This document shows, in pieces, positions 782 through 36,396 of a DNA stretch of 64,000 bases. This stretch comes from Ceratodon purpureus. Taxonomy: Eukaryota; Streptophyta; Bryopsida; Pseudoditrichales; Ditrichaceae. The translations under genes were made by a program, and so were the position numbers. Position 1 is the first letter of the stretch. Every line of letters starts with the position of its first letter. Location of the stretch: contig CM026433.1 of NCBI GenBank assembly GCA_014871385.1, positions 6,025,585 to 6,089,584 on the forward strand. Direction: 5' to 3'. Below the pieces are notes generated by a model, which was not told where the DNA came from, made no database searches, and worked only from the letters and a program-made list of their open reading frames with translations.

Positions 782-1084
782 TTGTTTTTTATCCATGCTA
801 TTGTTAGTTTCTGCTGTCACAACGAAGTCAGGCCTTCATCAATCGGTATGTGAGTCTAAAGACGTAGAGCGTAGGAAGTACCGTCATCCCGTTCTCTGAT
901 AGTTGTTGTTATGGTAGCTGTGTGATGTAGAATTTGTGTTTCGGAGTTTTGTGTTGTGTTGATGCTCTGTCAAGCTGCGTGTGAGTCATATGACATGCAG
1001 TATGAACTTGCTTTGAAGACGTGATCAGTATAAAAGACAATTAACGAAGGCGCGTTCTTATAGTCCAATTTTTCAAATGTGCAG
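1..1084. other. Upstream non-coding stretch with (TA)n microsatellite
   Basis: No convincing gene is seen here. A pure (TA)n microsatellite lies at about 735-779. The N-terminal half of a CACTA transposase (the TNP2/transposase_21 catalytic region) would be expected just upstream of the exon at 1085, but I cannot find it, so the element seems 5'-truncated or its earlier exons lie outside the window. The short open frames in this stretch have no recognisable domain. Confidence 0.55.
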
Positions 1085-3036
1085 GACCTTCCCATTCGGA
1101 ACTTGGTGGATGTGATGCACTGCGAGAAGAACCTCGGAGAAAATATTCTCAAAACCATTTTCGGTGAGAAGGATAGTCCGAAAGTTCGTCTGGACATGCA
1201 GAACCGCAACATCCGGCGTCATCTTTGGTTACGGATACTAAGAGATCAAGAGAGGCGAGCTTTCATGCCGAATGCGGAGTACGTACTGTCTCCTGAATCG
1301 CGGGAGAAATTTCTATCCAATCTTAAGGGTATTCACTTACCCTCACACTACTCGAGTCTGTTGCACTCAAAAGTAAGCAAAGGCAAACTGTCCGGACTTA
1401 AATCACATGATTACCATGTTTTGATTCAAGACCTCTTGCCTGTGTGTATGAGGGATCTCGGCAACGATGCTTTGACCTCGGTCATAGTGAGAATAAGTCG
1501 AATCTTCAAGCGAATTTGTTCGAAGACAGTGGACAGCGCGGAAAGGGAGACATTATTTGAAGATTGCGCAGAAACCCTGTGCCTTATGGAAAAAATGTTT
1601 CCCCCTGCTTTCTTTGACGTTATGGTTCACCTAACTATACATCTGGTAGAGGAGCTTTTTATTTGTGGCCCTGTTCATATAAGGTGGATGTACCCGTATG
1701 AGAGATATTTTAAAACTCTGAAGGGGTATGTACGAAACCTGGCTAAACCCGAGGGCAGCATGGCTAAGGGGTACGAGCTGATGGAGGCTTGCGGATTTGT
1801 TACTGAGTATTTCGGTGACAGCCAGGAACATATGAAGAAAGTTTGGGATTCAGAAGAAGATCCTTCGATGACAGACGTAGTCTTGGAAGGAAAGGGGAAG
1901 GATCGAGAACTTGATGAAAGGTTGTGGAGAGACATCCACAGCTTTGTAGTAGACAACGCAGACATAACTGAAGAATACCGAGTGTAAGTGGCCCTGCCCA
2001 GCATACCCATCCGCACTGTGTACGTGTTTATTATCTCGAAAGTGAAATTGAGCATGGTGATGCCGCAAGTGATTTGTTATTAATCATACGGTCTAATTAG
2101 CATGATGCACGTTTGGGAATGGTTCGGCGCTGTTATTAACTGGTGAATATATGCAGGAGGTACCAGGTACTTGTGGAGGAGAGGAACGCTGCAAGAGTAC
2201 GGTGGCGAGGACGGCACCAAGGGCGGAATGGAGCGAGGGGGCCCAACTTCCCGGCTGAACTGGCGGAATATCCACTGTTCGCAGATTGGTTGCGGGATAC
2301 GGTCAGAGAAGCAACTGAGCGGGGAGACGCGGTGGATTCTTCACTGCATGCTCTCTCGAAGTTCCCGTCACGAAAAGCAAAGAAGTACAGGAGTCTGTAC
2401 GCCTACGGCTATCACCTAAGAGTTCGAAGTGTAGAATCGAATATGAAAACATGTGACTCTGGGATTGCAGCAACGTTTCTAAGGCCCTGTCGATATGGCT
2501 TACGGGATCCGAACCCTGTCTTGGCTGCTTTAGAGTACGTTGGACACCTCGACGAGATCATTGAACTGGATTACATGGAGTTCCAACAGACTGTACTCAT
2601 AGGCTCTTGGGTGAAAGCGAATTACCGAGGCCCGTCTGCAACAGTGAAGCGGGACAAGTGGGGGTTGACGCTTGCAAATTTTAACCGGATGATTGATTTT
2701 GGAGCGGACTCATTTGCATTCCCCAATCATGTAGAGCAAGTTTTTTACGCTGACTGCCAAGAAAGTCCCGGTTGGAAAGTGGTTATTAGGACAGAGCCAA
2801 GGGGTAGGAGAGTGGTTGCAACGGATGAGGAAGAAAACGCGGGATTACTCTTCAGGCAAGGGAGAGATGCGGAATTCCCTGGCTTGAGGGTGCCGGATTC
2901 TGAAGGAGACGAGCCTGACACACGAGCCGAAGGAGGGAGGGTAATCCGAGTTGACGATTTTTACGCATCAGTGGAGGCAGAAACAGCCGAGGTGTTTGAT
3001 AGGGACGTTGGAGTTTCTTCTGACGAAGATCAATGA
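1085..3036 (+). CDS. CACTA (En/Spm) transposase, C-terminal part with DUF4218 and DUF4216
   Basis: Two exons fit: 1085-1983 and 2157-3036, about 592 codons. The acceptor before 1085 reads TGCAG; the donor at 1984 is GTAAGT; the next acceptor at 2156 reads ATGCAG, and the phase-2 join continues as RVRYQV. The first exon starts with the end of the TNP2-type transposase (NLVDVMHCEKNLGENI, matching the family's LDVMHxEKN motif). It is followed by a DUF4218 region (MFPPAFFDVMVHLTIHL, then IRWMYPYERYFKTLKGYV). The second exon has a DUF4216-like region (WVKANYRG through VEQVFYADC) and an acidic tail ending in EDQ. In CACTA elements this protein excises and inserts the transposon. The catalytic N-terminus is missing from the window, so this is a 5'-truncated or partial copy. 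Both exons are free of stops, which suggests recent decay or exons further upstream. CACTA terminal repeats were not found. Confidence 0.88.
1984..2156 (+). other. Intron of the CACTA transposase
   Basis: The intron starts with a consensus GTAAGT donor and ends with ATGCAG. It is 173 bp long. Removing it joins the DUF4218 and DUF4216 parts in a single frame, whereas read-through meets a stop at 1985-1987. Confidence 0.75.
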
Positions 3037-9702: not shown

Positions 9703-12700
9703 CTAATCTTCAATCATCACCTCAAAAGGATTGTAAGGACGGCCAGTGCAGCTCAGGATGACATTCGAAAGTTTGATGCGCAGAGATTTAAGGTCGTGCC
9801 TGAATTCGAGGGGAATATTGCTGCAGGCTCTAGTGTTGTGGCCGTATTTGTCGACAAGCTCTTTTTGGAAGTGTGCAAAGATATACTCGCGAACTTCAAC
9901 CTCTCCCAAGCCATCAGAAGGAAGCGTCCACGAAGGATAATACTTCTCGAAATCCCTATACGGCACAGAGTCTGGCGAATCATACTTTAATTTCATATTT
10001 AAACCTAACTCCACATTCTTGGAACAAGAAGTCCAGCACAATTTACGGCTAAACGAGTCGCGTACCCCCGCCAGACCTTCGGGCTGGTGTAGTGTATGAT
10101 GCTTTCCCGGATGATTTGAGGCCATAAAGCATGTAAGGCAGCAACGAGGACAAGTTTCATCACATCGCGGTCGGGCACCGTCGGTGTTGGATTCAACCAT
10201 CCTGTTTCTCACTTTGTCCACGGTGTCAGCCGTGGTGAAGGCGGCCGTATCGAAATGAATGTCGTTTATCATCTTGGAGACTTGGTCACGGATATCGTAA
10301 AAATTAATTGCACTTCCAGACAGCTGACACACGTCCTTGCTCACCTTGATGGAGACACTCTTGGCAAGTTCAGGAGACAAAGAAGCAAGACTACTGATGA
10401 TACTCTCCTGATATACTTGAGGTTTTTCTAGATCAGACCTAGACCTCCCTGCTGCAAGAGCTGCAGTATTCAAGGCATCAGTAATCGCACCTGTAAGCAG
10501 AGTCCAAAGATCCGCCTTTTTCAGTCGATTGGTAATTGCGCTTTTGATCAATTTGTTCACAATGCATTTGTAATGTTCCTTTCCATTGGAAACATAATCA
10601 ATCATCGCGTGAGTCTCCTTGCTTTCAATGAGTTCAATCAAGTGATGGTCCAGATATGCCCTCATCACTTTCCAATTTGTCACCCACTGCTCGGACTGTA
10701 GCTCGTTGGCAACATTTCTAGAGAGTAGCGCTGTGAACCCGGATATCAGATGGTCCTTTCCAAGGGCATTGCAGAATGCTATGGCCAACATCTTGGTTCC
10801 ATTCAGTTTTTTACCGTGGTTCATAAAACATGTCCAAAAATACTCTCGTTGTTCCTCCAATTTTTTGGAAACATTGTGCTGCTTATCCCAGTCTTCTTGG
10901 ATTTTTGTCATGCGTTCTGTCAATGAAATTTTTACAAGATCATGCATTTCCTGCCCCATGGCTTTTGAACACCTACGCTCTTCTTGTATCGACTTCTCAG
11001 TGAACTGCATCATATTGTCCACTAAGTGATCTGAATACTCCTGAACATCTTCCAAATAAGTTTGCAACCGAGTCATCAATTTATGGCGCAAAACTTCACC
11101 TGGATTGTATGTCTCCCTCTGTGAGAGAAAAAACGATGTCGAGAATTTGATGGACTCGGTTGTCCAAGTCTTCAACGATTCAATAATGCGAATTTTGTCC
11201 TCGGTACTTGCTTCGAATTTATATTTTCCTCCAACCATTGAATCGTTTACATATTTTTTGTGTATCATCCCCTCTACCTTCGTTGCCATGGCCGGGTGCT
11301 TGTCTGCCGCATCTTCCATGACGCGCTGGAAGATTGATTCAAAGTCTTTCTTCATGATCTCTTCATCACTATCAAGGTTGTAAGACTTTTTCCTAACGGA
11401 GGACATTTCCACCTCCATCATAGAGGTGTACTTTCTCATTGAACTTTCAAACCCAAGCACAACATTGGTCCAATTCTGTAGTTGCTCCTGCCAGTGACTC
11501 TTATTGCTCTCAAGAAAGGAGTGCCATCCATCAGTTTCCGCGACCTTCCAATTCTGGTATCGTTCATCATCAAGAATCTCGCGCACCTCCTGATTTACAT
11601 TTGTGACAGTGTCTTGGATCTTGATTTTCAAATCCTTCCACAATATGAGGAAGCTAAAGGGTTGGTCAGTCTGCGCTGTGTCAAGTCCCTTCGTACTTGT
11701 GAGACTCTCAAATTCGTCCTGCCATTTCTTCCCTACCTTTTGTCGGCAGGTAGCCAATCTAGTCTGCATTTCATGATAGTTTGCATGCTCAATCTGATTC
11801 ACGAAGCTCAGCTCAAAATTTGCATCGCAAATGCTTTTCCACACCATTCCCAAGTAATCCTTCCATTCCACCAACCCGTGAGATTTCCAACGACAACCAC
11901 CAGACAAAACACGTTCGTGGATGTACTCTCGCAGCTCTTCCACCTTGGAGCCATACTCCCAAATTGGGACGTCATCTGGCGGTGTTGTATCCTTCTTAAG
12001 ATTTCCGAAGTACTTTACGTCACTCTTCTTCTCATCTTCGGGGTTGTTCTGGAAATCTTGAAGTGGACACACGCCATCCGGCAAAGCAGAAATTTGACAA
12101 CTTCCTCCAGAAATGCTCAAGTTACCTACTGCTCTGGACGCTTCTTGCAAGTCTAATATAAGCTTCCGTTGATTGTTCTTTAGCTTTTTGATGTCGTTTC
12201 TGTCAACACTTCTGTAAACAAAGAAAAGCTTTGCTTTAATACGTCCCGACTCTCTTTCAGCCAAAGCAGATCCTTTAAATGCCAACATCACCATGGGAAG
12301 TACTTCCTTCAGTCCATTGTCCTCTTCATTGGCGACCATGACAACACAAGCATCTGCTGGAAGAACAGCAAAAGTTGCTAGGCGATTATCGTGTGCCACG
12401 GCACCCTTACGACCAAAATACTCTGGTGCCTTCAATCCCATTGTATCCAGAATAAGCACGTAGTCAAAATGAGAACCTGGCCACTCGGATTTCACTAGCT
12501 GAAGAAAGACCCCGCGGGTACACATGCCTGCACTGGCCTTCAGTTTTGCACCGAACATAACATTGAGTAGGGTAGATTTACCGCTGCTCTGCACACCAAC
12601 AACACTCAATACAAATACCTTTGGCTTTCGCTTGAGTATCACCTGAAGCGCAAGATCCAGTTCAGCTAAGACCGAATCCACCCATGGTTGGTGAAATGTG

Positions 12701-15700
12701 CCTGCATCTCCGTCTAAAATCTCCAATGGAAAGCCATCCAATAGATGTAACGTTGCCAACTTCGGCAAAAGTCGTCTGTGCTCTGGGTCTAAAACAAATA
12801 TGTGACTTAGCTCGCGCCACAGGTGCTCTAGGCCCAACATTTTATCTGCATGCTCCTCCTTAGCACGATAATAATCGCCTTTCATGTACTTCGATTCGGG
12901 GTTTCTCTGATAATCATCAAAAGCGTCATTCTCCTTCCTAGCAGCCTTTTCCAGCGTTAAGTGCAACTTCTGATCGATGGTAAGTTGGAACTGCCAAATG
13001 CCAATGTTCCGTTTCACATGGTCGCTCTCGAGAAGCAGTTTAACAAAGTGTTGAAGAATTGGCAATTTCGAGATGCGTTTCGCTTCACGTGCACGTCTTT
13101 CTTGACAATCCTTTATCTTTCGTTGAAGTTCGAGCCTTTGTCTTGGGTTTTGCAGTGCTTCAAAATAATACTGAGCTTCCTCAGTATAAATTTTCTGCAA
13201 CAAAAAATTATTCCTTGCATTTTCAAAATCGGATATCTCAAGTTCCACTTGTACCACATTAGAAATCGACGTCTTGCGGTTCAAAGACGCCACTGATTTG
13301 AAGCACTCTTCCAAGGTTGTTGCTCCACTGTTGTGTCCATTCAGTTGCTTCGACCAGGCTGTAATCAAGAATCTGCTGATTGCTTGAGAAACCTGTTTGA
13401 AAGATCCCCACACTTGTCGAAAATTTGGCTTGGATCTCTGGCCAAAGGGTCTTATAGAATCAGTACTCCAAGAGAATATGTTTTGCCGTGTTGTCCATGA
13501 AGGACCGCTCTGTTTAGCACCTGGCTCCGTTTCCATGACAACGACATCAGCAATCTTCTCCAAAAGAGTTCCTAGCTGGTTGTGATCTCCGGACACGCAG
13601 AAAACAAGACAAGGAAACTGCTTCGGAGGCTTCTCGCTTGGTACTACTACATCTTTGTTTAATATGGCACCACGTATGTTTAATACAAATCCAACGCCAA
13701 GTTCCACTACCGTAGGGTCATGAGATCCAACATTGCGATTAAAGTCAAAACCATAGTTTGGAAATTGACAATTCATCACGTCACATGCCATTTCTGTAAT
13801 TTGACGTTGAGAGACAACCTCTCTGTTCGAAACAAACACCACGCGGAGCAACTTTGTGTCCTCGGCTATCGATAGGATTTCTTGATTTTCTAGTTTCACT
13901 TTCACAAAGCCAAGTGCCTCCACCAGATGGCCAAACTCAGTGCTTCCCTCGATAGGTGAAACTACCTTTTCAAGTGGAACCACAATAGGGATGGCAAAAC
14001 GCTCTTCAAGGAGTACTTGCAAAATCGAAACCTGAGCAAGCACATCTGAGCGGACCAACAACTGTACCAAAATTTCAAGCGGAGAGCACTCAAGAGAGTG
14101 ATTAGAGGTGACAGTGCCATCGTCAGGCACTACATTAGTACAGCTGCTTGAATCTGATCCAAAAGTGATGTCATCGTCGCAGTCGTCATCGTAGTCTTGG
14201 TCAAGGATTTTAGAATTGTCCTGAAATGTGTCCAATCTCGCTTTAAAAGGCTCAATTCTATGTCTTATATTATCCATCATTCTTCTGCATGGATCTTCAC
14301 AGGATGCTGTGTTCGGCCGATCAACCAAAAAGTCGCCACTGTACGTGAATTTATCCATGAGGGAAGTACTGTACGCTGGAACAGTTGTGATGTCGAAAAT
14401 GTCTGTCAAAAGTTGCCACCATGTCAAGTACAAGTCAATCAAGATCCTCTAATCCACGATACTTCAATTCATGGGTTGCAACGAATTTAAAGGCAGCTTA
14501 AGTTACAAAGAGGGTTCAATTAAGTTGCAAAGGCCAAAGTCATCAAAGAAGACATCCAAAAGATCTTTGGTGACGTTAACACAACATGAACTCAGACACT
14601 ACAAGAAAAAGGTGTTGTCCAGGCCAACATATGTAAACAGAATGTCGATGAAGAAATTCTGCCAATGCCTTATTAATTGACATGTATATGAAATTAATAT
14701 TCAATTTGGGCAAGTAAAAAAAAGGCCATACCTGGTTCTTGTGGACCAAGAGATGCAGAGCATGGGAGAGGAGTCTCAAGATAATCAGCCAAGTCCTGAA
14801 TTATAATCTGTAACGTGTCACCTTCAAAAGACCTCCCAGAGAAGTTGCCCCTTTCAATATTGAAGCCATGCTTCATGACGATGATCTTCACTGCTTCTGA
14901 TCCTACGGAATGTTCACGTAAGCAAGCTTTGATAGCCTTGATAGCCGTCTCCACCAAATTGGGCATCTTGAAATTAGGTGCTCCACTTAGCAATTCTCTC
15001 AGCTGCACCAATAGTTGAGTGGGTAATAAAGTATGTAAAGTAGGCAATCGGTCTATGACCTGGGCCTGGTCAATTAGATTTCGGATTGATGTAGGTAAGT
15101 TGATATCCGCATCTTTCAAAACCTTTTGCATGTCTGTGGACAAAATTCCTTGCACGATCAAGGTTTTCGCATCACTCAAGTCGTTCTCAGCCGACTCCGC
15201 TATCTCACTTAAAAGATTTAGGAAACTAGAATCTTGAAATAACCGCACCCTTTCTTCCCACGATGCAGAGATCTCAGAATCGGTTTTCTTGGATGCCTCA
15301 ATCCACAAATCTGACAGAATTTCGCAGGTTTTAACCGGTGTCTTCATCTTTTCGTTTAAACACAATCTGAGCAATTTGTTGACCTTAAGCCGTCGGGATG
15401 AGCTGTACGATTCTCGCAACATTTCATACAGCCTGCCTTTACTAAGGCCTGTACTTTTAATTGTACTTTGCCAAGATTGCTCGAGGAGATCACAAGACTG
15501 GTGAAGACCACTAACACCCTTAACTGATGGGATATCCCAAACTGGCACAAGTTCACCTCCATCTTCAGTGTCAATGATATACCAAGTGGACCTATCCTCA
15601 AGCCCTTTCTTAAACTCCTCTTCATCATCTGTAGAAGGACCTAGCGTCATGCTAACAGTTTTCAAATTTGCTTGTTTCTTGCTGCTTGTGTTGGAAGAAG

Positions 15701-23200: not shown

Positions 23201-23870
23201 CACAAGCCTTAGAACGCAAGAGTCTGATCTACAGCTTCGTCGAAACTAAACAGATCGGAAGCATGCAAATTGCTCTAGGTCACTTGAGTTATGTTGACAC
23301 AGATGATCAATCAAGGGTTGATGAAGTGAAGCTAATTTTCTCATTGCCGAACCCTCTAATGTATGCACATTTGAAGTGCACACCGACGTGTCTGAAATGG
23401 TCACCTTGGAGCCTTGGATAATAAGCTAAGTGCATATTTTTTTTATCAAACATTTAACGTTGTCTGAAATGGTCATCTTGGAGCCTTGGACAATAAGCCT
23501 TGGACATATTTTTCATCAAAACATTCAACCTGGAGTCTTGGACAGTATGCTAAGTGACAACTTTTCAATGGAAGTATGAAATAGGTTAAGTATATGTATT
23601 CAATAGATAAGAATGCGAAAAGTAGCTGGGAATATGTGTTTCATACATTCTAGGTTGGATGGCCAAGTTCTCATCATCCTTGTGTTTAACCTGTAAAGGT
23701 CTACATGTATTGGAACCTCCAAGACCCAAAACTGCAGATTTTGACCACCTAATGGAAATTGATGTATGTTTCTTATAAAATTTGCTTTTCAGGTATTTCC
23801 AACCATAAGATTCCATAATTTTAATCATTGGATCTTACCATTTGTGATATTATAATGTTCGAAGTTTATT

Positions 23871-23918
<48 letters not shown>

Positions 23919-24629
23919 CTTTGCCTTTGCCTTTGCTCGAAAGGCATAGTCTAAATGGTGTCAAGGGACACTTGATGATTGTTACCTCGAAAAATTTTGC
24001 TCATATTTTTTACCATGTAGGTAACTAAGTTTGGCACCTCCATGCAAAATTTTGGAGACTCATTTTGATGTTTTGGCCTTCATGCAAATTATTTTCTAGC
24101 GGGTACAAAATCCTCAATATAGTAAAACTTGAATAAAGTTAAAGTTTTTTGGTTTGGAAAAGAAGTGAATGGTGAAAAGTTACATGTATGAGTTTGTGAA
24201 TTTCAAAACAAAAAAAAATTTGAAAAAATCCTAAATCTCAACTTTTGACAATTTTTGAAAAGAAAAAATGGAAAATTACAAAAAACTTTGAAGCTTGTCC
24301 ATGCAATTTTTGGAGGCTGTCCTTGTAAAATTTGTAAACTTCTTGACTTGGGTCATTTTGGATTTTGAGTAGTGATTTGGTTATGAACATATTTATAAAA
24401 AAAATTGAAAAAAATAACTTAATTTTAAATTGTCATTTTTTAACTTGAAACCTAAATTTCTAGAGGAAGGTTCTAAAATTAGAATTTGACTTTGAAAATT
24501 TTACTACTTACACCTTACCGTAAAGGGAGCATCTAGTAAAAATCTTAGGCACAAATATTACTTTCAACCTGTTCATCTAGGATACTCAAAATAGCAAAAC
24601 CAGAATCAGATTTCCTATACCTTTAGGGG
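23201..24629. other. AT-rich flank left of the piggyBac element
   Basis: This region contains the F-box gene's 5' flank, a run of 45 T at 23872-23916 followed by three GCCTTT-type hexamers, and AT-rich DNA without supported genes. Composition changes sharply at 24630-24650, where the GC-rich piggyBac interior begins. Confidence 0.5.
23389..23560. repeat. Imperfect tandem repeat, about 72-bp period
   Basis: TGTCTGAAATGGTCA(C/T)CTTGGAGCC starts at 23389 and again at 23461, followed by a shorter third variant containing CTGGAGTCTTGGACAGTATGC. The second and third copies carry internal indels. The repeat is non-coding. Confidence 0.6.
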
Positions 24630-24633
24630 TTAA

Positions 24634-24642
24634 CCCTTAATG
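24634..24642 (+). repeat. Left terminal inverted repeat of the piggyBac element
   Basis: CCCTTAATG follows a TTAA at 24630-24633 and is the exact complement of the right tip. The following bases (CAGTGCGCGC) match the other end only loosely. Confidence 0.75.
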
Positions 24643-25860
24643 CAGTGCGCGCAGGTGGTTGAACATGTCTACTAGAGCGTATACTGCCTGCTTACTCCCA
24701 TACCGGTGTCGATTTCCGGGGTTCTACTGACCCGTTAGACTTCCTTTTTTTTTCTACCGATGCATTCAAGGGTTGCGGTAGTTGTGAGCGCATTCGGCAG
24801 TTGCGAAAGCATGCTACACATGTTGTAAGATTTATGTAACCGCGGGGGGGGGGGGGGGGGGGGGGGGGTGGAATCGGAGGTGGGGACCGAATACATAGGA
24901 GTCCGGGTCCTGCGCGAGTAAATGAAGGACGTCCGGCCCACCTCCGCTCGGGGCGATGTGATGGATCGTAGGGGGTTTGACGGTGGAAATGGTCACCGGG
25001 ACAGCCCGCTGCCGTAAGTTACGCGCGTTGAGAGGGAAGGACGCAAATGGCCTGGCGAATGGGAGTCCTTTGATGGACGCGGACACGAAGTCCCAGGACA
25101 TTGAACCCTGAACTCAGTAACTGCTTTTGTGGTCCTCGCAAAGGGGTGTATCTGCTGAAATGTGGTCGACGCTGTTTGTGAAGTTGCGGTAGAGGCGTGG
25201 CAAATTAGGGTTAGGTTTAGCAATGGCAATGTGCTGAATGCTCTACCGCAAGAGAGTGGTTTCAATGTCTATGGTTTAGGATCATAGTTAGAAAGGTTTT
25301 AGGTACCCTAGGAAACAGAGACGGAAATGACTCCGAGAAACCTGAAAACCATCAGTGAACATGGTGCTTATTATGGACGAAGTAGACTTGAATGCTCACT
25401 TCCAACTTCCAGCAACGAAACAGAAAAAGTCTGCATTTTTGGTGTACATGGTGAAGGCATGGTAGGTGAACTTCTTACAAACACAGCTGAGCAAAATTTG
25501 CATGGTTCAGAAACAAACATTTCAACAAAGGTCACGTTGCACGACTCACGAGTATTCAATGTATCGTGCTTGCAGAATGAGATGTGTCGTGAAACATAAT
25601 AAAGGTATTACACAACGTAAAAGAGTATGCTCTCAGACATCATCTCTGAGTTCTCACAATATTTCAGGAAAATGTACAGCTACATTGTTCAGGTAATCGA
25701 GCTAACATCTGTCAACAAAAAAGGTCCACTTGAAAGAACAACAGAGTCGGCTACGGTGAAGCAAAAGAGGTAGGACCTAGAGGTTGCATTGTGATTTCAT
25801 GCTAGCTGGGAAGACGGTGTTTCGCGTCCGACGTCTACTGCGATGGAAGATATCACGAGT
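24643..25860. other. Left subterminal region of the piggyBac element
   Basis: No supported gene. It holds a run of 25 G at 24844-24868 and, near 24758, CGATGCAT followed by TCAAGGG, resembling the right tip of the element. Short minus-strand frames at 24832-25265 are probably fortuitous. Confidence 0.45.
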
Positions 25861-27004
25861 TCACACCTTCGTCACTCGGTATTCGATGTCGCCCACCTTT
25901 TCGAAAAGCAGGGTGTCACCTAACTTGAGGTGGTTGGCACGGCAGAAGCTGGCCCATCCGTCGGTGAAAAAGCACTGCCTCTGCTTCCCGGAGAAGTAAG
26001 TTGCAGAATCCACTGTACACGCCGCCCTCGGGCCGCTGAGCCAGTACCAGACGTCGTCAAAATGACAGCTGCCATACTTCCTCCAAAACGCCGTGGGCAC
26101 ATCCTGCAGACAGCAACCGAATCGGCCGTGAGTGCAGGCAGAAGGAGAGTCAGCGGGATGTGTCTACAATAGGGCAGTAAACAAGAATTTCGGTATGAAG
26201 CAAAGACGGGAAGCTTACAACTCTGCTTGAGGGAACGTCGAGGACATGCGATTTTCGGAGAGTCTTCCGAAAGGAAGGAATGTCAACGGCCGTGGTGTCG
26301 TGAAGGTCAGTGACGCGGGTTGTAGGCAGCTGCGTGGACAAAGGCCGGCGAGCATGACCAACCTCGGAAAGGTCCCTGTGCTTAAGGCGTGTAGGCTTTA
26401 TGTCGGTGTCCACTACCTCGGGGGGAGAGACACGGGAGCTGCTGCGCCGATGTATGGCCACTGCCAGGCACGCCTTGTCAACGACTTCAAACGTCAGGAA
26501 AGCGCCGATGGTCAATTCGTGGTCGGAAACAAAGGAAGCCCACCCTGTCCCGATAGAAATGAATGCGAGCCCCCCAGATTCATCCTTCACTCCATGGAAC
26601 TGCACGGGCCACTCGTCTTTCGTCGTGACGGACGTGACAAGGAGGCAGTTTTCCTCTCCCGGCCAGCCATGGCGCTGGGTGAAGGAGGTTGGGATTTCCT
26701 GCACTCCGGTGCAGACACATTCCAAGATCGGCAGAAGACCTTTAGGGTCAGTACTCGCAGTGGAAGGTTGAGAACATGGAAGGTCACTATCGCAAATCCG
26801 AATTGAGTGCTACAGAAACGTCAACTGTACAAAAATGAAAGAGTCTAACGTTCTGAAATGAGCGAGACGAAGAGAGTGCAAGAGGTTGATGATGCGTACC
26901 AGGGATGATGTGTGAGAGTTCGAGGAGAAGACGACCGAGAAATAACGCGCGCCACAATCCTCTAGCTCCTTCAGAACCGCTGCCACAGCTAAGTCTTCCG
27001 CCAT
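25861..27004 (-). CDS. Two-B3-domain (REM-like) DNA-binding protein
   Basis: Three exons fit without any frame break: 27004-26900, 26698-26219 and 26103-25861. They give 275 residues from ATG at 27004 (MAEDLAVAAV) to TGA. Donors are CTG|GTACGC and GTT|GTAAGC; acceptors are GTGCAG and GTCTGCAG; both joins are phase 0. The first B3 domain spans about residues 20-115: YFSVVF, EIPTSFTQRHGW, then GWASFVSDHELTIGAFLTFEV. The second spans about 180-272: FRKTLRKSHVLDVP, DVPTAFWRKYG, then GWASFCRANHLKLGDTLLFE. Both share the GWASF core typical of B3 folds. Between them is a Ser/Pro/Arg-rich linker. B3 proteins are plant transcription factors acting in the nucleus. The gene lies inside the piggyBac element on the same strand as the transposase. 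It could be captured host cargo or an element-owned regulator; it appears intact. Confidence 0.85.
26104..26218 (-). other. Intron 2 of the B3 gene
   Basis: Donor GTT|GTAAGC and acceptor GTCTGCAG|GAT on the minus strand; 115 bp. It interrupts the second B3 domain, and its removal gives PSSRV-DVPTAFW. Confidence 0.75.
26699..26899 (-). other. Intron 1 of the B3 gene
   Basis: Donor CTG|GTACGC and acceptor GTGCAG|GAA on the minus strand; 201 bp. Removal rebuilds the start of the first B3 domain (HTSSL-EIPTSF). Confidence 0.75.
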
Positions 27005-28524
27005 CGCACCTCCAAAGTCAAAGGCCACAGAAGCGCACACAGACACGAGTAAGGAACAGAGTGCTGAGCATCAAACCAAGGAGTGCAGAACGACTGAGAG
27101 AGGACGGCTAATAGCAAAAACGAGCGAGAAGAGTATGTTATAAGTGAGGACAGAAGAGAAGCACGCAAATTAAAGGCAGGAAGCTTGCCTTCAATGCAGG
27201 GAAATTTGCAAAGATTGCACTTGAGAGTAGGCGCAGTAAAAGGCCTACGAAACTAGGTTTAGACATTATGGCCTACGAGGGAGAGCAGATCTAATCATTT
27301 GGATTGGGCGTCCTAAATATCAAAGGGTCACCTCGGACATCGTGTCACGGGGGATTCAGTCGTGACAGCACTTAAGAGACCTTGATGAGGATGGACAGCC
27401 GCATCGAAGGTGATAATGACCAGGGAGAAGGAGGTGTCACCGTCAAGAGACACAGAGACACAGTGCATATAATGCATCCACGAAGCCCCTCTGTAAAAGA
27501 ACAAGGGACGTTAGAATTCTGCTTCTGCAGTTTCCTTTTGTATAAGAACTACAAAGATTGAAACAATTACAAACGTCTGATTTGGCAAAAATTTGGTCCC
27601 GTGAACCTGATGCTAGACATCGAACCTGAACATAAGCTCTGGCATTGTCGTGATGTCTCACGGCCACGTGCAGGGGAAGATCGGAACGAGAAATATTATC
27701 CAACCTCCTGCCAGAAGATTGACCCTGTACACTCCAAACACGGTTCTCAATGATCAAAACACAAAAGAAAACCTTCATGAATAAGAAATTAACTAACAAT
27801 CAACACTTCTGTTGCAAGCCGATGTGTACATTGAGCATGTAACTCACATAGCCATGCCAATAAACCCTACCAAAAGCTCTATGAAAACCCAGTGAGAATA
27901 AAACCGCAAGTGAAACATGATGAAGTACCTGATGATCACTCAGGGGCGTGACCGAAAGCGGAAACAGGTAAAGATTCCACTTCGATGGCTCCGGAGCACT
28001 TCCTCCAAAACAGCTACTTCTGCCTGTTCCCACCTGCAAATTCAAAGAGTGAACGCGTCTGGGGCGATGTGTCATTAGAAACCGCATAAAAGACGGGGGT
28101 TACCAAAAGGCTAATGGCACCACTAAAGCGACCTTCTGCCTTCTCACATTGAGCAAAGAAACATTAGCCTCTGATGTCCGTGGTTTCCACCACCGGAAGT
28201 GACACCGCGAAGTGACACATGGACTGCAGCGAGATTGTACAACAATGCTGGCAAACCTCAAATTCCGGAGTGACTGTCAAGTACAGAGAAATAAAAAGCA
28301 AAATGGAAGCAACAGCATCATTGCGGTAGCTTGGTAGCAAAATGGAGAATATGGAACAGTAGTCTTCGGGAAAGTCCGAACGTGTAAGCCCACCGGAGCT
28401 GCTGCAGCAGCTTCTAAGGGAGAACCAATAAACATTCCAGCCTGAAACTAGGACGGACACCTACGCGACCCTGGGTGCCATCTCTACTAAATCTGGAGTG
28501 AGTAGAACAAGGAAGATATCGAAG
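27005..28524. other. Piggybac interior between the B3 gene and the acidic ORF
   Basis: This probably contains the B3 gene's promoter. Minus-strand frames at 27443-28460 are short, and I could not link them by splice sites into a product. No repeat or RNA gene was recognised. Confidence 0.4.
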
Positions 28525-28968
28525 CTACACAGGCACCCATCGGCGAGTGTGGTTCTCGCACTCTGGGTCGCTACAGCGGTAGTCAGTGCTGTCGCTATCG
28601 TCGGCAGCGTCGCTCCCATCGGTGTCTGATGCGGACGGAATCACCGGAGGGGGGCGTCCTACAACGCCGACAGAGTCCGGAGGGCCTGCCTCTAGGTGGA
28701 CGGGCGGTGAAGCAAGACGGGGAGGTCGGTCCAAGGGATGCACATGGCGCACACCAGTCACTTCAGCGACGGCCTCGTACTGCGCGGTGTAGGTCTGCGA
28801 CCACTCCCAAACGAAGTCGTCGTCGAGGAGGTGCGTGATGGCATGGTAGCAGGGAAGTTCCATGTCCCAATTGACCTGCTCAAAAAGTTCTACTCGAGAA
28901 AGCCAGTGACGCACCTCCTCGACATTTCCGGGCCGGTCCGCCGACACGTCCTCGAACTTGCGTTTCAT
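28525..28968 (-). CDS. Small acidic protein with Cys/His tail, 147 aa
   Basis: From ATG at 28968 (MKRKFEDVSADRP) the frame gives 147 residues. The N-terminus is basic and charged (a KRK motif that could serve in nuclear import), and the middle is WLSRVELFEQVNWDMELPCYH. A Pro-rich linker leads to an acidic run (SDTDGSDAADDSDSTD). The C-terminus holds CSDPECENHTRRW, which could bind a metal. I do not recognise the family. The frame stays open upstream to 29202, so the start is a guess based on the first ATG. It lies within the piggyBac element on the same strand as the B3 and transposase genes and is likely an element-encoded accessory protein or a captured fragment. Confidence 0.45.
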   Translation of the reverse strand: MKRKFEDVSADRPGNVEEVRHWLSRVELFEQVNWDMELPCYHAITHLLDDDFVWEWSQTYTAQYEAVAEVTGVRHVHPLDRPPRLASPPVHLEAGPPDSVGVVGRPPPVIPSASDTDGSDAADDSDSTDYRCSDPECENHTRRWVPV

Positions 28969-29221
28969 GGCACATGCGGAAATAGAGAAGGAGCAAATTT
29001 TATCAGAGAAGGGAACTGCAAAGCGGTGCTCAAAATGAAACTGAAATCTGCTCTTAGCCGAGGAGGGAATTCGTGGGCAGCCTACATACCGTCTGAGGGG
29101 GGGATCCATCCTCGGGTGTCGCCCTCCTCCACGGCTGTCGGTACGAGTGACAAAATCGCCGACGCGTGCCAGGGATATTTCTGCTCCCACACTTCCGTTC
29201 AAGTCCTTTCCCTTGGCCTCT

Positions 29222-30736
29222 TCACGTTTCCGAGAAGGCGTCTACGGCTGATGTTGCAATCGGCTGTTGAAATCGGCGTGTCGGAATTGAAAGAGGGACG
29301 GACAGCCATATGAACTGTAGTGAGGAACGTCGCGTCAGTATTTTCAGCAGACACTCCTTCCGCACTTCCATACCACGGCTGTCTGGGACAGGTCGTCTTC
29401 CCTCTGGAAAATGGCAGCCCCTGGTACGACATAGGCATTCTGTTTTAGAGCGGTGCCCCCCCGTGCTGTCAAAGAAGGGTGATTGAGTCACAACGACCGG
29501 GACCAAATCTTCTGAGGTACAGTTGATATGTACAGTAGTTGGAGCGCCCTTCCACTCCAGAACTCTCCAAGTGCAGCCTCGGCGTCCAAATCCAACCGCA
29601 ACACACCATAACCAAAACCAGCGCTAACTGAAGACACAAATCCCAGTGTCAGGTCATAGCATAGTGCAAAATATAAACCACTTGGGAGCTTCACTTCCAC
29701 TCCAAGAACACAAACAGTATTGCATTCACCAAAATCAACATGTGGTACTGAAAACCTCTTTCTCCTTCACGCCACTCTTACTCCAACTCCGACATAGCAA
29801 TCCATTAATACAAAAGTAACTTACAATTACGAAAACAAATAAAATTTTAATACAATACTCTAAACTACTTGGGGAGCGTACCTCGTCATCAGGAGGGTCG
29901 TCATTCTCCTTGACGGCAACAGGATAGTCCCCCAAAGCAGAGAAACAAATGCATCCGGGATTCCAGAGTGGGGATTAGCAAGGGAGGAAAAATGGACGAC
30001 AAGGTTCGCACTCAGAACAGGTTCACAAGAGTCACAGTAAAAAACTACATTGTCCAGACGCACTTACACTTCAGTCGGACGTGGGGATCTTCCGGCAGCG
30101 CTTGCTTCTGACGTCCAATATGACAGTACGCCGGAATGTACGAAGTGGGCTTACGAAGCACCTCCCATTCTCACACCTGTTAAATCTCAAAGATGTTACG
30201 ATACTACAAACACCAAACCAAAAAGAAGGACAAATATACCTCCTCAGCACCAATTCCGCTCACGAACGTTACAGGGAAGAACAGAGTCATCGTTTGAATA
30301 TAAAAGTCAGAAGTAAAACTTCGTGTACTAGAGAGTCATCAGGCATTTACAAACAAATGAGGAGGTCCTCCACAGTTCGCACTACATTGTCCAGACACCG
30401 CTATGTACTCCTACGAGGCACTTCAACTTCGCAGATAAGGAAGCGCCACGGGACGACTGAGATTCAGGCCTGGGGGGAAAATAAAAAGACGGCCCGTCAC
30501 CAACTACAAATGCACAGCCTTCGCTCGCCGAGGTATGTTCCTGGCCTTCGGGGCCACATTCACAGGGACCTACTGCGGCGGGCACGGCCGCTTTCGCTTC
30601 GAAGTCCTTCCATGTCAGGGAAGTCCACCGCCATGGACAAGTCCCATGTCGCATCCCGCCACGCAACGTTTCCAACCCGACCCTGCAAAAAAAGGCACAC
30701 AACCCCTTGGCATTAGCGACAGATGAAATTTTTAGC
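29222..30736 (-). other. Unresolved exon-like frames in the piggyBac element
   Basis: Several minus-strand frames look like pieces of a spliced gene. One begins at 30682 after a strong acceptor (TTTTTTTGCAG) and reads GRVGNVAWRDATWDLSMAVD. Another at about 30063-29882 ends in KENDDPPDDE at a GTACGC donor. A third, at 29700-29488, reads VKLPSGLYFALCYDLTLGF onwards. I could not join them in phase and found no known domain, so I report no product. They lie just downstream of the transposase stop codon on the same strand. Confidence 0.35.
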
Positions 30737-33700
30737 CTAAAGGTTGTCGTGCTGTTCCTGATAGCAATCCTCGGGGCACATCCACGTGCTTCTACACGCC
30801 GAGCAGTACCACTTCGTTCGGATACCACATATGACGCAAGCCCTTCTAAGCGTCGACCGGAACAAGGTATGGACCTTTGGAGGCCGCCTGGGTGCGCACT
30901 GAGCAACGGGTCGCTCTCTCCTGCGGCGTGCTTCTACTGCACCCTGAACGAGATACTTCCCGACGGCGATCTTGAAAGCAAGATGAGTGGTGACTGGAAG
31001 GCCAAAGTCCTGCATCGACTTCACCCACGTCACGTAAGAATTCACCATTGTCTGATCGACAACCAGGTGAAAGATTTTCAACCACCACTTGTGGCACCTG
31101 AGTTGCGCTGAGTAATTCCCTCTGAGCTGGTCAGCTACGTCGACTCCCCGCATGTACTCGACATATTGTCGGTGCATGGGAGACGATGGGACTACCAGCT
31201 GCCCCCGCATCCCAGGTATACGTCGCAGCACCTGAGTGTTCGGCTCCCAGGGGGCGGCTGCGGTACTCAAGAGGGTTACCAGCTTCTTATCCTGCCAGCT
31301 TACCACCCCCATTTGGCGGTGAACATGAGTTCGAATAAGCATTGACCCCCTCACCCTGGAGTCAGATTTGCGGTACAACCCACCAGGAAGGTTCTTACTG
31401 GCCCGCTTCACGGTGCCCGTAGCCCATATACCCTTGCACATCAAGTCGTGGAACAAATTAACACTATTGAAGAAATTGTCTATTACAAGACAGTGGCCTC
31501 GGTGCTCCAGCCCCTTCACCAGTCGCTCCACGACATGGTAAGCCAAGCCATGAGGTCCCGCCCCTGTTCCCTCCCTGAAGTAGACCTCCATCTGCCAAAC
31601 AAATCTTGACTTCGAGCTCGCTAGGAGCCACACCTTGATGCCAAACCTCACAGGTTTCTTCGGCATGAACTGCCTGATGTAACAATACGGCCCCTTATAG
31701 GGAATGACGCATTCGTCCACCGTTATCTCCCTCTCGAGGTTGTAGATGTCTCTGGAGACCTGAACAAACATTTCTACCAACCACCTCGTCTTTGCTATTC
31801 TATCGAATCTCCTGTCTTTCGCATCCCTAACTATGGTACTGTTGTCCACCAGATGCAAACACCTGAGGATACTCTGCCACCGCTGTAACGTCATCACGGA
31901 GGAGATAAGTTCGTAGTAGAGAAAAGGCTGACCCCGCATCCGGTATTGACGAATACTGGGGAGCCGCTTGCATCCCATCAGTATGCAGATGCCTATCCAC
32001 CCGCGTATCTCCTTTCTATCCACATCTCTCCAGCCAGGGCCCCCCTTCGTCTTAGGCGGTTGTGTTTCTTGAGGAGGCAAGGGCGCTCTTGCATAGCGGT
32101 TCGTCTCTTGGACGATGCGGTCTACAGTAGCATCCGACCAGTACAGGTCAAACACTGCATGCGGCAACGGCACCCCCTCCGCTCTGGGCCCCTTCAGTCC
32201 GGGGGTTGGTCCGCTGAAATTGTCTCTTGACCCCAGGAAGCTGACACTGCTGGAGCTCCATGACTCCTTCCTGTAATGCATGTCGAGTTGGTAAGCGTCC
32301 AGATACGCCGGGGTGAAAGAATCCGGCGTCATACACCAGTCCTCTACTCCGGCCGCCACAGGCACATCTTCGTCGTCAATATCCACGTAGCAGTCTGACT
32401 CGTCGCTGTTGAGCGTGTCTTCGAACTCCGGAAGCCACTCCGCATCACTGGAGTCCGGTTCTTCAACTGGTGCTTTGCCCCCCGCCTTTCCTGCTTTCCC
32501 ACCCGCGTTTGTGCATTTAGTACTAAGTTCCATGTAATCAAGGAGCTCGTTATATACCTTAGGAAATGTAGTGCGAGCCGTCGAATCTTGTGTTCCGTCC
32601 ATCCCCTCCATGTCGGAGGGGGCATCGTAGTCTGCAATAGGCTCCCCTGCTGATGGCTCTGGGAGTGGCAGTTCTTTACCCCGGACTCCCACGTTTTCTG
32701 CGACGTGTTCTGTCCGCCCAGGTAAGCCATCGGACTCTCCAGCCTCGCTTCCACTCCCTGTCCCTACTGCTGTGTCCAGGGGAGCCGATGGCACCGCAGG
32801 GCTCCCAGGATACTCGTCCACAATGTCCGGGAACACGACCGGGGCCCTCGGGCTAAAACAATGCTGGCGTTTCCACCACCCGTATCCATGGCCTCCCTCG
32901 CTCCCGCAGGCCCGCAAATTTGGTCCCGTCGAGATCCTCACGTTCTCTTCCTCCATGTGGCACTCTGTATTGTTTCCCCCGAGATCGCACACCACAAACT
33001 TCTTCCCTGTGTGGACGTGCACGCCCTCCCCGACGATGTCACCTTGCGTCCACGAGGGCGTGTCGCCGATATGGAAGGAGGCCTCACTCAGAAATCGATT
33101 CGGAACCAGCACGGCCCACCCCGCCCTTTCTGTACTCCAGTTGCAGTATGCTCCGTGGTAGCGATCCGGCAGTGGACCAATTTCAACCACAACCTCTGCC
33201 TCCCGAGCCCCTCCAGGATGTGTCGCCCCGAACCCCGGGCCGCTCTTCACGATCGGCGCAGACGTTCTCCACGCGTTGTCCTGGAAAACTGACTCCCAGA
33301 GGTTGATGCTGACTGTCTCCATACTGTCAACAGTATGGAGATTCTCCTGTGCTACTGTCCCCAGCGCGACGTTGTCTTCGTCTGCAAAATGGGCAAGGAC
33401 CTCGGCTAAGGCCTCGTCATTGAGGCGCTGGATTTCATCCTCCGCTGCCTGCGCTGCGAGCGCCCGGATCAGAACCCCGTGGGTAGCGTTGGGCTCAATC
33501 ACCGGAGAGAGCCATCCAGTGGGCTTACGAGGTTTTCTTGTCCTCTTCCCCTTGTCCTCCTTCGGAATCCGCGGTGCACTTCCCTTCGGTCTCCCTGCAC
33601 AGAGCACCACTCAGAAGATGGCTCAGGTATTCCTCGTGACCTCTCCCGACTATCAACACAGCGGCCTAAACCGTATTCCCTTTACACAGGTCGGACAGTA

Positions 33701-34641
33701 ACTCCAACAGCAAGGGAACATGCTGAAGGCAATGCCAAATGCAAATGCAGAACACTTACGGTAAGCTTTTGGAGTCGACTGGGGCGGGGGTGGTCCGAGG
33801 GCGTTTGGCGTCTGACTCTCCGGCATGGGAGTCTGCTGGGTGGATAGACTTGTGATGTCGGGATGCACATGCGCGCCCTTCTTCGCTCTCGACTTGCGTG
33901 GGGGCTTTGGCGTGCTGACGTCCTCCATTGTCTTTTGCCTCGGTTGGCGAGGCTTCCTTGGCCTCTTTGTCCCGACTCCGACGATGGAGATCGGCAGCTG
34001 CGTAAGGGCGACGGGCGTTCCCCCCTCCGTCCCATCCGGCCCCTCCGCACTGCCCGGTACGGGCACGTGAATCAGCACCTACGGAACAGGAATGTGAATC
34101 ACACTTGTGAGTGCCGTGGGCGATTGATAGTGAGGAAGAACTGTAATTCCTGAACCCTAAACAATGAGATGAGATGACTCGTCCTCAAACAGAAAGCAGA
34201 GACTAACCTTCCGTGCTCTTGGCTTGCGAGGTTGCTTCTGTGTCCCGGATGGGTCGACGTTCTCCTTCCCTGGCTCCGCGAGTGCACAGTTTGGTATTGC
34301 TCCCACCTGGCAATAAATAAGCAACAGCGGTGAACTATTAATACTGCATTTCACCATGAAACAAAGAACTCCGAGAAAGGATTACGCCATTTAGTTTGAA
34401 CTGGATCGCAGGGGTTCATTGTCTATCATTCCGAACAGATGACTGTAACTCTGTGCAACAGTCCTGCATATGTGACAATCAACCACGCACACCTCTTTGT
34501 ACACTGCAGCGCTCACCTGCGTCTTCGCCCTGCTCTGGCGCGGCTTTTGCGGGCGTGGTGGAGGTCCCCTTGCCTCGGGTGCTGTCTGGACTACGAGACA
34601 TTCCAGCCCCTCGCTCTCCTGCCGTTCCGTCAACTCCAGAC
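30737..34641 (-). CDS. piggyBac transposase with long PRKPR-repeat N-terminal region
   Basis: Exons 34641-34517, 34306-34208, 34078-33760 and 33594-30737 join in phase with GT-AG signals and give about 1,132 residues; the N-terminus is not resolved. The large exon carries the DDE_Tnp_1_7 fold of piggyBac and PGBD proteins. The three catalytic aspartates are present: ITVDECVIPYKG (near 31715), CLVIDNFFNSVNLFHD (near 31478) and RGVDVADQLRGNY (near 31139). The end is a cysteine-rich DNA-binding domain (CVICGIRTKWYCSAC, then CPEDC and H). Upstream exons each encode a basic AT-hook-like motif: PQKPRQSRAK, KQPRKPRARK, KRPRKPRQPRQK with PPRKSRAKKG, and KRTRKPRKPTG. These may bind AT-rich DNA (inference). 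The enzyme excises and inserts at TTAA. Its roughly doubled length compared with the insect enzyme (about 594) comes from the N-terminal extension and an acidic linker. No stop or frameshift is seen in the core. Confidence 0.9.
33595..33759 (-). other. Intron of the piggyBac transposase gene
   Basis: Donor TACC|GTAAGT, acceptor TCTGTGCAG|GG; 165 bp on the minus strand. The phase-1 join makes CGG (Arg) and yields PKAY-R-RPKGSAPRI. Confidence 0.7.
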
Positions 34642-35920
34642 CTTGAAATTCACATCAACCAATGACGCAAATCAATTCGACTCTAAACCTAAATCTCCAA
34701 CCATGCGTATTTCATGAACCCATGTGTAATACATCAGAGGTTCCATGGCCTGCATTCAGGCATAAAAAATCGAGTTTCATTTGACATATTACCCTCTGAC
34801 TGCATCCCCGTCTCGCCTGAAGCAATTGCCTCTACCGTGAACCCCATAGCAAGCCACAGGGAAACACCGCAAACTGCCTATAACCCTAAATGTCGCAATT
34901 TCAAGGTATGGAGTCCTTACCTGAGCATTGGTGCTTGGACACCCTGTAAAGCATTCTGCGCCCCCCGTCTGCTGTGAGCCCCCCTTCGACAACCTCGCCA
35001 AACGTTTCATCATTGCGAACGACAGTGGAAAATGTACCCTCGTAGAATGCCTGTTACCACCTCCGGGAATTTCTTCCTCTCGCACCACCCTAAAATCCTC
35101 GCCGCGTGATGATACCAGAGGTATCTGCTGCGTTCTGCTACCCCAAATGTGCCACGGCGATTCCACTTTGATGGTCGCGGCTGCGCAAGGAGCGTAGGCC
35201 CGTCCAGCAGCACAATCGCCCGGAGCACTCCTTCCTCCGATACCCCTTGCCCTCTAAACCAGGTCGCCAATTCCTCCTCAACTGAGACGCGCTCTGCACT
35301 CTTTGCTCTCCCGGAGATCGGCATGTATACTCCTTCCCCAGTACCTCTCCCGCCGCAAATTCCTTGGCCACGACCTTGCTACACCAGTGCATGCTCCAAG
35401 TGAAGATAATCTGCCGCCACCACAGCAACATGTACCCCAAGCTGCAGTCCATTTCCCCAGTCGCTTCACGGCCGAGTACTTCAGAACGTGGTGGTCACAA
35501 TCCGCAACGCCGCCTCCGCCCGCCAAAACCTCCGTCACGTAGTCCGGATGGCCTTCAAGAAACTAAAAACAATACCCTCACCCACAAACCCTGAGGGGTG
35601 GGAGAGGAAGCCCAAGCAAAGCGCGGGGGAGAGGAATCCAACAATTGGATGTCACATGAGTGGGGATGTCAACGACCTCGACCCGCTCCCCCGGTCACCA
35701 ACGGCCACGCCACAAATCACGCTGAGTCTCGGTAGCCCGGACGCCGCAAATCCCGGAAAGACCACACGTTCCTACGGCGCTCTAGAGGAGCCCCCGAAAT
35801 ACACGGAGGAGCGCACTCTAACCGACCTAGAAATTCAAATACGACTCTGCGAAATTCAAGAAAAATCTCATTCTCTTCTCCCTTCTACTGCCGACAACTC
35901 GGCAGTTCAATACCAACGCT
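34642..35920 (-). other. Possible 5' exons of the transposase gene and right end of the element
   Basis: A minus-strand frame running to 34921 (ESPWHIWGSRTQQIP through CPSTNAQ) ends at a good donor (CAG|GTAAGG). Its phase does not match the exon at 34641, so at least one small exon is missing from my model. A second frame at 35010-35324 (VEEELATWFRGQGVSEEGV) overlaps it in another phase. A possible terminal transposase start could not be chosen. No other gene is supported up to the right tip. Confidence 0.35.
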
Positions 35921-35989
35921 GATTCGCATGGCAAAGTGTCGCAAATCCACTTTCCCCTCGGTCCACGACCACATTTGGGTCGATGCATA

Positions 35990-35998
35990 CATTAAGGG
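35990..35998 (-). repeat. Right terminal inverted repeat of the piggyBac element
   Basis: CATTAAGGG precedes a TTAA at 35999-36002 and is the exact complement of the left tip. The sequence becomes AT-rich immediately beyond it. Confidence 0.75.
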
Positions 35999-36396
35999 TT
36001 AATGTGATCTGATTATATGGGTAGACAGACATTAGAGTCTTATGTGAGCATGACAGATAGAACAAGTAACGGTGATTTTAAGGTAGGACAACCAAAAACG
36101 ATGAAAATAAGGTAATTTGACCAAAAAAAAAGGAGTTAGAAAATAGGTGAAATTTTTTGAGATGAAGAATGCAAGTTGTTTTGTATTTATATTCTCCACA
36201 AATAATTATCAATAACTTTTCAAAGTGGAAATTTTGTCAAACCCCCTTCTTGTATACTATACTCTTTCTAACCTAAATGTGATGGTATCCCTTTCGACAC
36301 ATAAAAACACCTAAAACAGTTAATTAATATCACCAAAAACCGCACATAAGATTATTAAAAAAAAAACCTTGACATTATGTGGCATTGCAATCACTT

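Follow-up and report, generated by a model that had tools for sequence, protein, structure and literature searches.

We analysed a 64,000-nucleotide stretch of the genome of the moss Ceratodon purpureus (GenBank assembly GCA_014871385.1, contig CM026433.1, positions 6,025,585 to 6,089,584, forward strand), referred to here as the window, which contains a large transposable element of the piggyBac type together with additional genes. The body of this element occupies window positions 24634-35998 (11,365 bp) and lies between a TTAA at 24630-24633 and a TTAA at 35999-36002. Its left end, CCCTTAATG, starts at 24634 and its right end, CATTAAGGG, stops at 35998; the 13-mer at each end was found once within the window. 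The features of the element and of its insertion site are given below in window coordinates (ORF, open reading frame; aa, amino acids).

23686..24633, no strand: abutting non-autonomous piggyBac-type repeat, outside the element, forming its insertion site
24630..24633, no strand: left TTAA target duplication, which also serves the abutting repeat as its right TTAA
24634..24642, plus strand: left terminal inverted repeat CCCTTAATG; the same tip is found at other sites
25861..26103, minus strand: B3 gene, modelled exon 3, with the second B3 domain and the stop codon (GT-AG model; Pfam B3 match on the enclosing ORF)
26219..26698, minus strand: B3 gene, modelled exon 2, with most of the first B3 domain (model; Pfam)
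26900..27004, minus strand: B3 gene, modelled exon 1 with the start codon (model)
28525..28968, minus strand: ORF2, 147 aa from ATG, conserved downstream of related transposases
30737..33610, minus strand: transposase main exon, 957 aa open (PF13843; piggyBat in the PDB)
about 31034-32164, minus strand: DDE domain of the transposase
31715-31717, 31478-31480 and 31139-31141, minus strand: codons of the presumed catalytic D residues
about 30749-30838, minus strand: Cys/His-rich C-terminus of the transposase
33653..34078, minus strand: upstream ORF with AT-hook-like PRKPR motifs, probably a spliced exon of the transposase gene
34160..34381, minus strand: small ORF with AT-hook-like motif QPRKPRARK, part of which is also conserved in C11 and C2b
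34391..34654, minus strand: small ORF with AT-hook-like motif RPQKPRQSRAK; the same type occurs about three times in the C11 element
35010..35324, minus strand: first ORF (MPISGRAK...), frame broken in the window copy; a homologue precedes 47 of 48 transposases
35990..35998, minus strand: right terminal inverted repeat
35999..36002, no strand: right TTAA target duplication

Ends of the element

The perfect terminal inverted repeat (TIR) of the window element, CCCTTAATG, is only 9 bp long, and end-to-end comparison of this element found no longer inverted match. Both ends begin with CCCT. According to PMC10175614, piggyBac ends have a TIR of 12-19 bp and start with CCYT. G+C content in 100-base windows was 0.19 and 0.34 to the left of the element and 0.26-0.37 to the right of it. 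Inside, it was 0.45-0.64 over the few hundred bases next to either end, with a dip to about 0.4 at 25200-25600. A long run of G is located at about 24846-24868, inside the element near its left end.

A first-pass annotation, made from the letters of the window, had proposed an element with these TTAA sites and tips, an abrupt change from AT to GC at both of them, and a transposase within. We reproduced the boundaries exactly, and the transposase was recovered by its matches to PF13843 and to piggyBat in the PDB. The composition change is real, but on the left it is partly due to the abutting repeat, and the interior dip interrupts it. The observation of a TTAA-bounded piggyBac element is confirmed.

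Transposase

The window transposase matched PF13843 (DDE_Tnp_1_7) with E = 4.3e-68 and piggyBat in the PDB with E = 1.1e-27. Genome-wide searches were carried out in the C. purpureus assembly (362.5 Mb, 151 contigs). With the window transposase as query, the best of 1228 candidates were scored, giving 57 matches; nine were dropped as second pieces of one locus, which left the best 48 loci, the window's own included. The related loci were 54-76% identical to the window transposase, and the matched stretch was stop-free in 32 of the 48 and contained a stop in 16.

We then considered 15 aligned transposases, picked for their long open frames and 52-74% identical to that of the window in the full alignment. 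Residues D632, D711 and D824, taken as the catalytic aspartates of piggyBac, were invariant in all of them. The same was true of C925, C928, C936, C939, C945, C949 and H954 in the C-terminus, where no Pfam zinc finger was found above cut-off. A block near residues 158-252 was strongly conserved and had no Pfam match. Among 79 pattern matches, no relatives of the transposase in viral contigs were confirmed. Judged by its predicted protein, the element is an autonomous-type piggyBac with a complete catalytic core.

Related elements in the genome

The 13-mer TTAACCCTTAATG was found 37 times in 362 Mb, compared with 12 times for the reversed control. Three other convergent pairs of this sequence bound elements, two of them with a clearly related transposase and the third (C2:1904227) with weak protein matches only. 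Given this and the excess over the control, the tips are not due to chance. The C11 element (C11:13382204-13407162, 24,951 bp) has 20 identical bases at both ends, and its middle holds a nested Ty3-type retroelement. The C2 element (C2:18619351-18628386, 9,028 bp) is 98.9% identical to it over a 7.2-kb part and 99.6% over a 1.8-kb part, with different flanks. The third element, C2b (C2:1904227-1930445, 26,211 bp), is without a nucleotide match to the window element; only its small right-end ORFs match the latter, weakly and at the protein level. C2b holds CACTA-like and Ty3-type proteins, these names, like that of the C11 insert, being our reading of the ORFs.

A second tip type, TTAACCCCTTTTGCAGG, bounds the elements at C10:2459435 (10,981 bp) and C6:95210491 (11,383 bp). 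These two copies are bounded by TTAA and are 98.7-98.8% identical from tip to tip; each has a transposase, ORF2 and a B3 gene. As this near-identical pair is found in different flanks, the whole unit of about 11 kb, including its cargo, has moved. The C6 copy directly follows GGGGTTAA sequence.

A less strict version of the tip pattern matched 187 times, compared with 57 times for its control. Pairs among the 100 of these matches that were listed delimit further elements of 10,929, 12,122, 10,520 and 10,679 bp, each holding at least one of transposase, B3 and ORF2 and otherwise defined by the tip pattern. Eight further TTAA-tipped elements were available, as two near-identical pairs and four from paired tip patterns, and their sizes show that about 11 kb is ordinary for this family in C. 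purpureus. One more tip-pattern pair, of 9.5 kb (C5:19832434-19841972), has an upstream-ORF match just inside it and no transposase, B3 or ORF2 among the matches listed.

The near-identical copies point to recent movement. The first-pass annotation had suggested that the element may be active, and this suits the family, with copy pairs 98.7-99.6% identical; it suits the window copy less well, which is 2 bases short in an upstream ORF. Its view of the size as unusual did not hold for this genome, where relatives without nested inserts measure 9-12 kb. The same kind of ends, which it had proposed to look for at other TTAA sites, are present elsewhere in the genome.

Comparison of the copies also bears on the region upstream of the transposase. 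Small ORFs with AT-hook-like PRKPR motifs lie there on the same strand, and their number is multiplied in the C11 and C10 copies. We observed about three tandem copies of one such exon in C11, repetition of a similar one in C10, and one clear copy of that type in the window element. These differing counts suggest that AT-hook number may vary through exon duplication. A homologue of the first ORF was found 1.2-3.5 kb upstream of the transposase in 47 of the 48 loci. The upstream and AT-hook-like ORFs are probably exons of the transposase gene.

Insertion sites

The left flank of the window element is a non-autonomous piggyBac-type repeat of about 950 bp (about 23686-24633), to which part of the left composition change therefore belongs. 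Its right TTAA is common to the window element. The four copies of the repeat that were fetched all match it along its length, with 79-82% identity. Exact TTAACCC/GGGTTAA tips were found at both ends in two of them, at one end in a third and at neither end in the fourth. We read this arrangement as an insertion of the window element into the border TTAA of an older non-autonomous piggyBac repeat.

Empty sites were sought with joined flanks. For the window element none was found: there were 41 matches, and all except its own halves ended at most 6 bases from the junction. The left half is repeated (2034 candidates, 40 scored) and the right half matched itself alone. The joined C10 flanks returned only their own halves. 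With the C11 flanks, 40 of 1303 candidates were scored, of which two were the element's own halves and the other 38 all cross the junction; five of five empty-site copies that were aligned ran through uninterrupted. The aligned copies of the repeat that hosts the C11 element start with TTAACCC. An empty site, as proposed in the first-pass annotation, was not found for the window element, but a paralogous one was obtained for its relative C11.

A conserved cargo of B3 gene and ORF2

Pfam detected B3 domains on two ORFs (25861-26809). A three-exon model with GT-AG introns gave a 275-aa protein with PF02362 in two stretches (E = 7.5e-22, 77.6 bits, cut-off 30.1). The closest PDB chain of the spliced model was At1g16640, a REM protein; the match was weak (E = 0.04). 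ORF2 did not match Pfam.

We found that a B3 match lies downstream of the transposase on the same strand in 28 of the 48 loci, and within 15 kb in any orientation in 29. The B3 matches were the best 150 scored of 382 candidates with the window B3 as query, and some of them may be host genes. Random placement of B3 gave a mean of 0.14 and a maximum of 2 in 200 trials, for which contigs without an entered size were set to 18 Mb. An ORF2 match was found downstream in 21 of the 48 loci (150 of 666 candidates scored, giving 64 matches, one of which was dropped as a second piece). When the upstream ORF was taken as the reference (best 150 scored of 277 candidates), 63 of the 150 matches had B3 downstream on the same strand, none had it upstream and five had it on the opposite strand. 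Inward-pointing tip-like patterns, taken from the 100 listed of the 187 tip-pattern matches, were located 1.0-2.3 kb past B3 in 22 of the best 150 B3 matches; the controls gave 0 for the wrong-way orientation and 3 upstream in either orientation. The conserved gene order is upstream ORF, transposase, ORF2, B3 gene, left tip. The first-pass description of one large element with cargo was correct, and the cargo is a conserved module.

A genome-wide set of PF13843 loci (best 116 scored of 998 candidates) included only two of the 48 relatives. Among the 116, six had B3 downstream and five had the upstream ORF. Since these loci are mostly without B3 and the upstream ORF, the B3 cargo seems to characterise a single lineage; the lists of B3 and upstream-ORF matches (best 150 each) were made with window proteins, and the other lineage could carry more distant cargo. 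All 116 loci passed the cut-off; many have open frames 900-1100 aa long, and most look like a second piggyBac lineage.

Selection on the genes

We compared the window and C11 copies by codon position. Differences at positions 1, 2 and 3 were 0.18, 0.15 and 0.48 for the transposase, 0.22, 0.11 and 0.43 for the conserved part of ORF2, 0.40, 0.25 and 0.50 for B3 exon 2 and 0.20, 0.13 and 0.44 for the upstream ORF. The 5' stretch before the first ORF was flat (0.26, 0.29, 0.31). Omega values for the same pair, calculated on stop-to-stop ORFs, were 0.13 for the transposase, 0.30 for ORF2, 0.29 for B3 and 0.15 for the upstream ORF. These patterns, as read from codon changes, appear to be those of selected coding sequence for all four genes. 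Between the C10 and C6 copies, synonymous and non-synonymous codon changes numbered 13 and 12 in the transposase, 1 and 4 in ORF2, 2 and 7 plus 0 and 2 in B3, and 0 and 3 in the upstream ORF.

Interpretation and alternatives

We consider it highly probable that the window holds an autonomous-type piggyBac of about 11 kb from a large family that moves as a whole unit, with a conserved gene order and with the B3 protein as a presumed self-regulator. Members of the piggyBac superfamily move by cut-and-paste at TTAA. By the known piggyBac mechanism, the transposase would bind both ends, cut at TTAA and paste the unit into a new TTAA. From the anatomy of the element, the upstream and AT-hook-like ORFs would be spliced onto the transposase and help to hold DNA, and the B3 protein would serve the transposon as its own sequence-specific regulator, acting on the expression or silencing state of its copies. 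The interpretation put forward in the first-pass annotation is supported.

Several observations weigh against this reading. The first ORF of the window copy is 2 bases short relative to four relatives, which breaks its frame upstream of the catalytic core; the full protein may not be produced from this copy, whose own activity is doubtful. The exon structure is modelled from sequence. Only 28 of the 48 transposases have a B3 match downstream, and the C2 copy is without the middle of C11 and hence without ORF2 and most of the exon for the first B3 domain; full cargo is thus not strictly required for persistence or movement. The strength of the cargo matches was only weakly related to transposase identity, with Spearman 0.34 (p = 0.09, 27 elements) for B3 and 0.50 (p = 0.026, 20 elements) for ORF2, of which the 31 best matches were taken. 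The aligned empty-site copies for C11 have TTGA, not TTAA, at the target, suggesting that the element sits in a repeat copy where TTAA had arisen. Most other omega pairs were saturated at synonymous sites, and the C10/C6 cargo changes, few in number, total 3 synonymous and 16 non-synonymous, which fits relaxed selection. Finally, self-regulation or VANC-like targeting (see below) predicts motif repeats in the ends, which were therefore looked for. The outermost 650 bases of the window element showed no significant repetition of short motifs (p = 0.27 and 0.39), and eight end-motif tests on four elements gave one 8-mer, in C11, at p = 0.005.

Two alternatives concern the integrity of the element. 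Its true ends could lie elsewhere if the left tip had been mistaken owing to the abutting piggyBac-type repeat, with which it has a TTAA in common. We regard this as extremely improbable, as relatives show the same tip beside different flanks and the repeat occurs without the element in all four fetched copies; boundaries within the neighbouring repeat were rejected on these grounds. The cargo could also stem from a different transposon nested in or beside the piggyBac, which would make the 11.4 kb a composite. Nested elements do exist in two relatives, C11 (Ty3-type) and C2b (CACTA-like and Ty3-type proteins). The C10/C6 pair, however, is bounded at the outer TTAAs only, and the two copies correspond all the way through the cargo except for a single additional piece of about 420 bp; in 22 of the best 150 cases, a tip-like pattern is located beyond B3. 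A composite of nested elements is very improbable, and we rejected it on the C10/C6 continuity and the outer tips.

Other alternatives concern what the B3 protein does. Work on REM B3 proteins, which direct RNA-directed DNA methylation (PMC12270911), and on VANC, a group of transposon-encoded anti-silencing proteins (PMC10398659), suggests that this moss piggyBac lineage may have adopted a REM-like B3 gene to supply a targeting or anti-silencing factor of its own. This proposal, drawn by analogy, is tentative and rather unlikely. If it is true, B3 could divert or block the small-RNA methylation machinery on the family's own copies, and haploid-dominant mosses would provide, alongside VANC, a second and independent case of plant transposons countering their silencing. 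B3 could instead be a conventional transcription factor for the element's promoter and not an anti-silencing factor, which is quite possible, if short of an even chance: B3 is a DNA-binding domain, and the window and C11 show good conservation of the non-coding sequence 5' in the transposase gene (about 71% in the aligned portion), but a binding-site repeat was not found in the ends of the window element. Capture of B3 and ORF2 from the host as passengers without a role (Pack-type gene capture), with the transposase alone mattering, is unlikely. The persistence of the 9,028-bp C2 element with its truncated cargo would fit such capture, as would the 16 non-synonymous against 3 synonymous changes in the C10/C6 cargo and the C11 copy, in which the B3 match is 54% compared with 76% for the transposase. 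Against it, order and strand are kept in 28 (B3) and 21 (ORF2) of the 48 elements, whose transposases are 54-76% identical to that of the window, and the window/C11 comparison gave a coding codon-position pattern and a cargo omega of about 0.3.

Relation to known systems

A piggyBac element is usually a few kb long. The moss element resembles piggyBac of Trichoplusia and piggyBat in its DDE domain, TTAA duplication, CCYT-type end start and Cys/His-rich C-terminus. It differs from them in its size of about 11 kb, the long N-terminal part with AT-hook-like motifs, the presence of B3 and ORF2, and its plant host. VANDAL elements belong to a different transposase superfamily, and their regulator to a different protein family. 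The likeness to VANDAL and VANC of Arabidopsis (PMC10398659) is that of a DNA transposon which encodes, or in the moss may encode, its own sequence-specific DNA-binding regulator; VANC-target motif repeats were not found in the window element ends. With REM-type B3 factors (PMC12270911) the moss protein has the B3 domains in common, a possible REM kinship being suggested by a weak PDB match; unlike them, it lies inside a transposon family and is very divergent.

Teratorn of fish is, according to PMC10175614, a 180-kb fusion of piggyBac and a herpesvirus. There too a piggyBac transposase moves extra genes, whereas the moss element has plant-type B3 cargo in a unit about 16 times smaller. No herpesvirus gene families were found in the 10 plus 3 window ORFs scanned, which cover part of the small ORFs. 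A virus fusion was rejected, as 11.4 kb is too small for the Teratorn gene set.

According to PMC10175614, piggyBac is widespread in eukaryotes and found especially in animals. Among the papers listed by a literature search that mostly covered openly available work, none reported, in its title or the opening of its abstract, a piggyBac from mosses or one that carries a B3 gene. A term search did not find piggyBac as a transposon name in PMC10619864 (which has 'piggybacking' only), in PMC7466625 or in a 2026 review on how plant transposons capture genes (PMC13317346). Belonging to the piggyBac superfamily, the element represents a variant for which we found no description. The findings suggest that a plant regulatory gene was acquired, and has been retained, by a transposon type that is mainly animal.

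The moss genome contains a large piggyBac population, with 998 (PF13843) and 1228 (window transposase) first-look candidates, and one lineage of it has a fixed plant-type accessory gene. Being a naturally occurring piggyBac with about 8 kb of sequence besides its main transposase exon, the element is a candidate for piggyBac tools in plants. It also offers a testable case of a transposon having taken over a host-type DNA-binding regulator.

Other genes in the window

An Rfam scan of the window gave 0 matches. On the plus strand at 1064-3033, ORFs matched DUF4218 with a score that passed the cut-off and DUF4216 with one that did not; both are domains of CACTA-type transposons. A 1581-aa open frame on the minus strand at 9706-14448 has a URGCP-like GTPase domain (E = 9.8e-51), of a family known mainly from animals. 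The window also holds a gene for a reversibly glycosylated polypeptide, a plant family.

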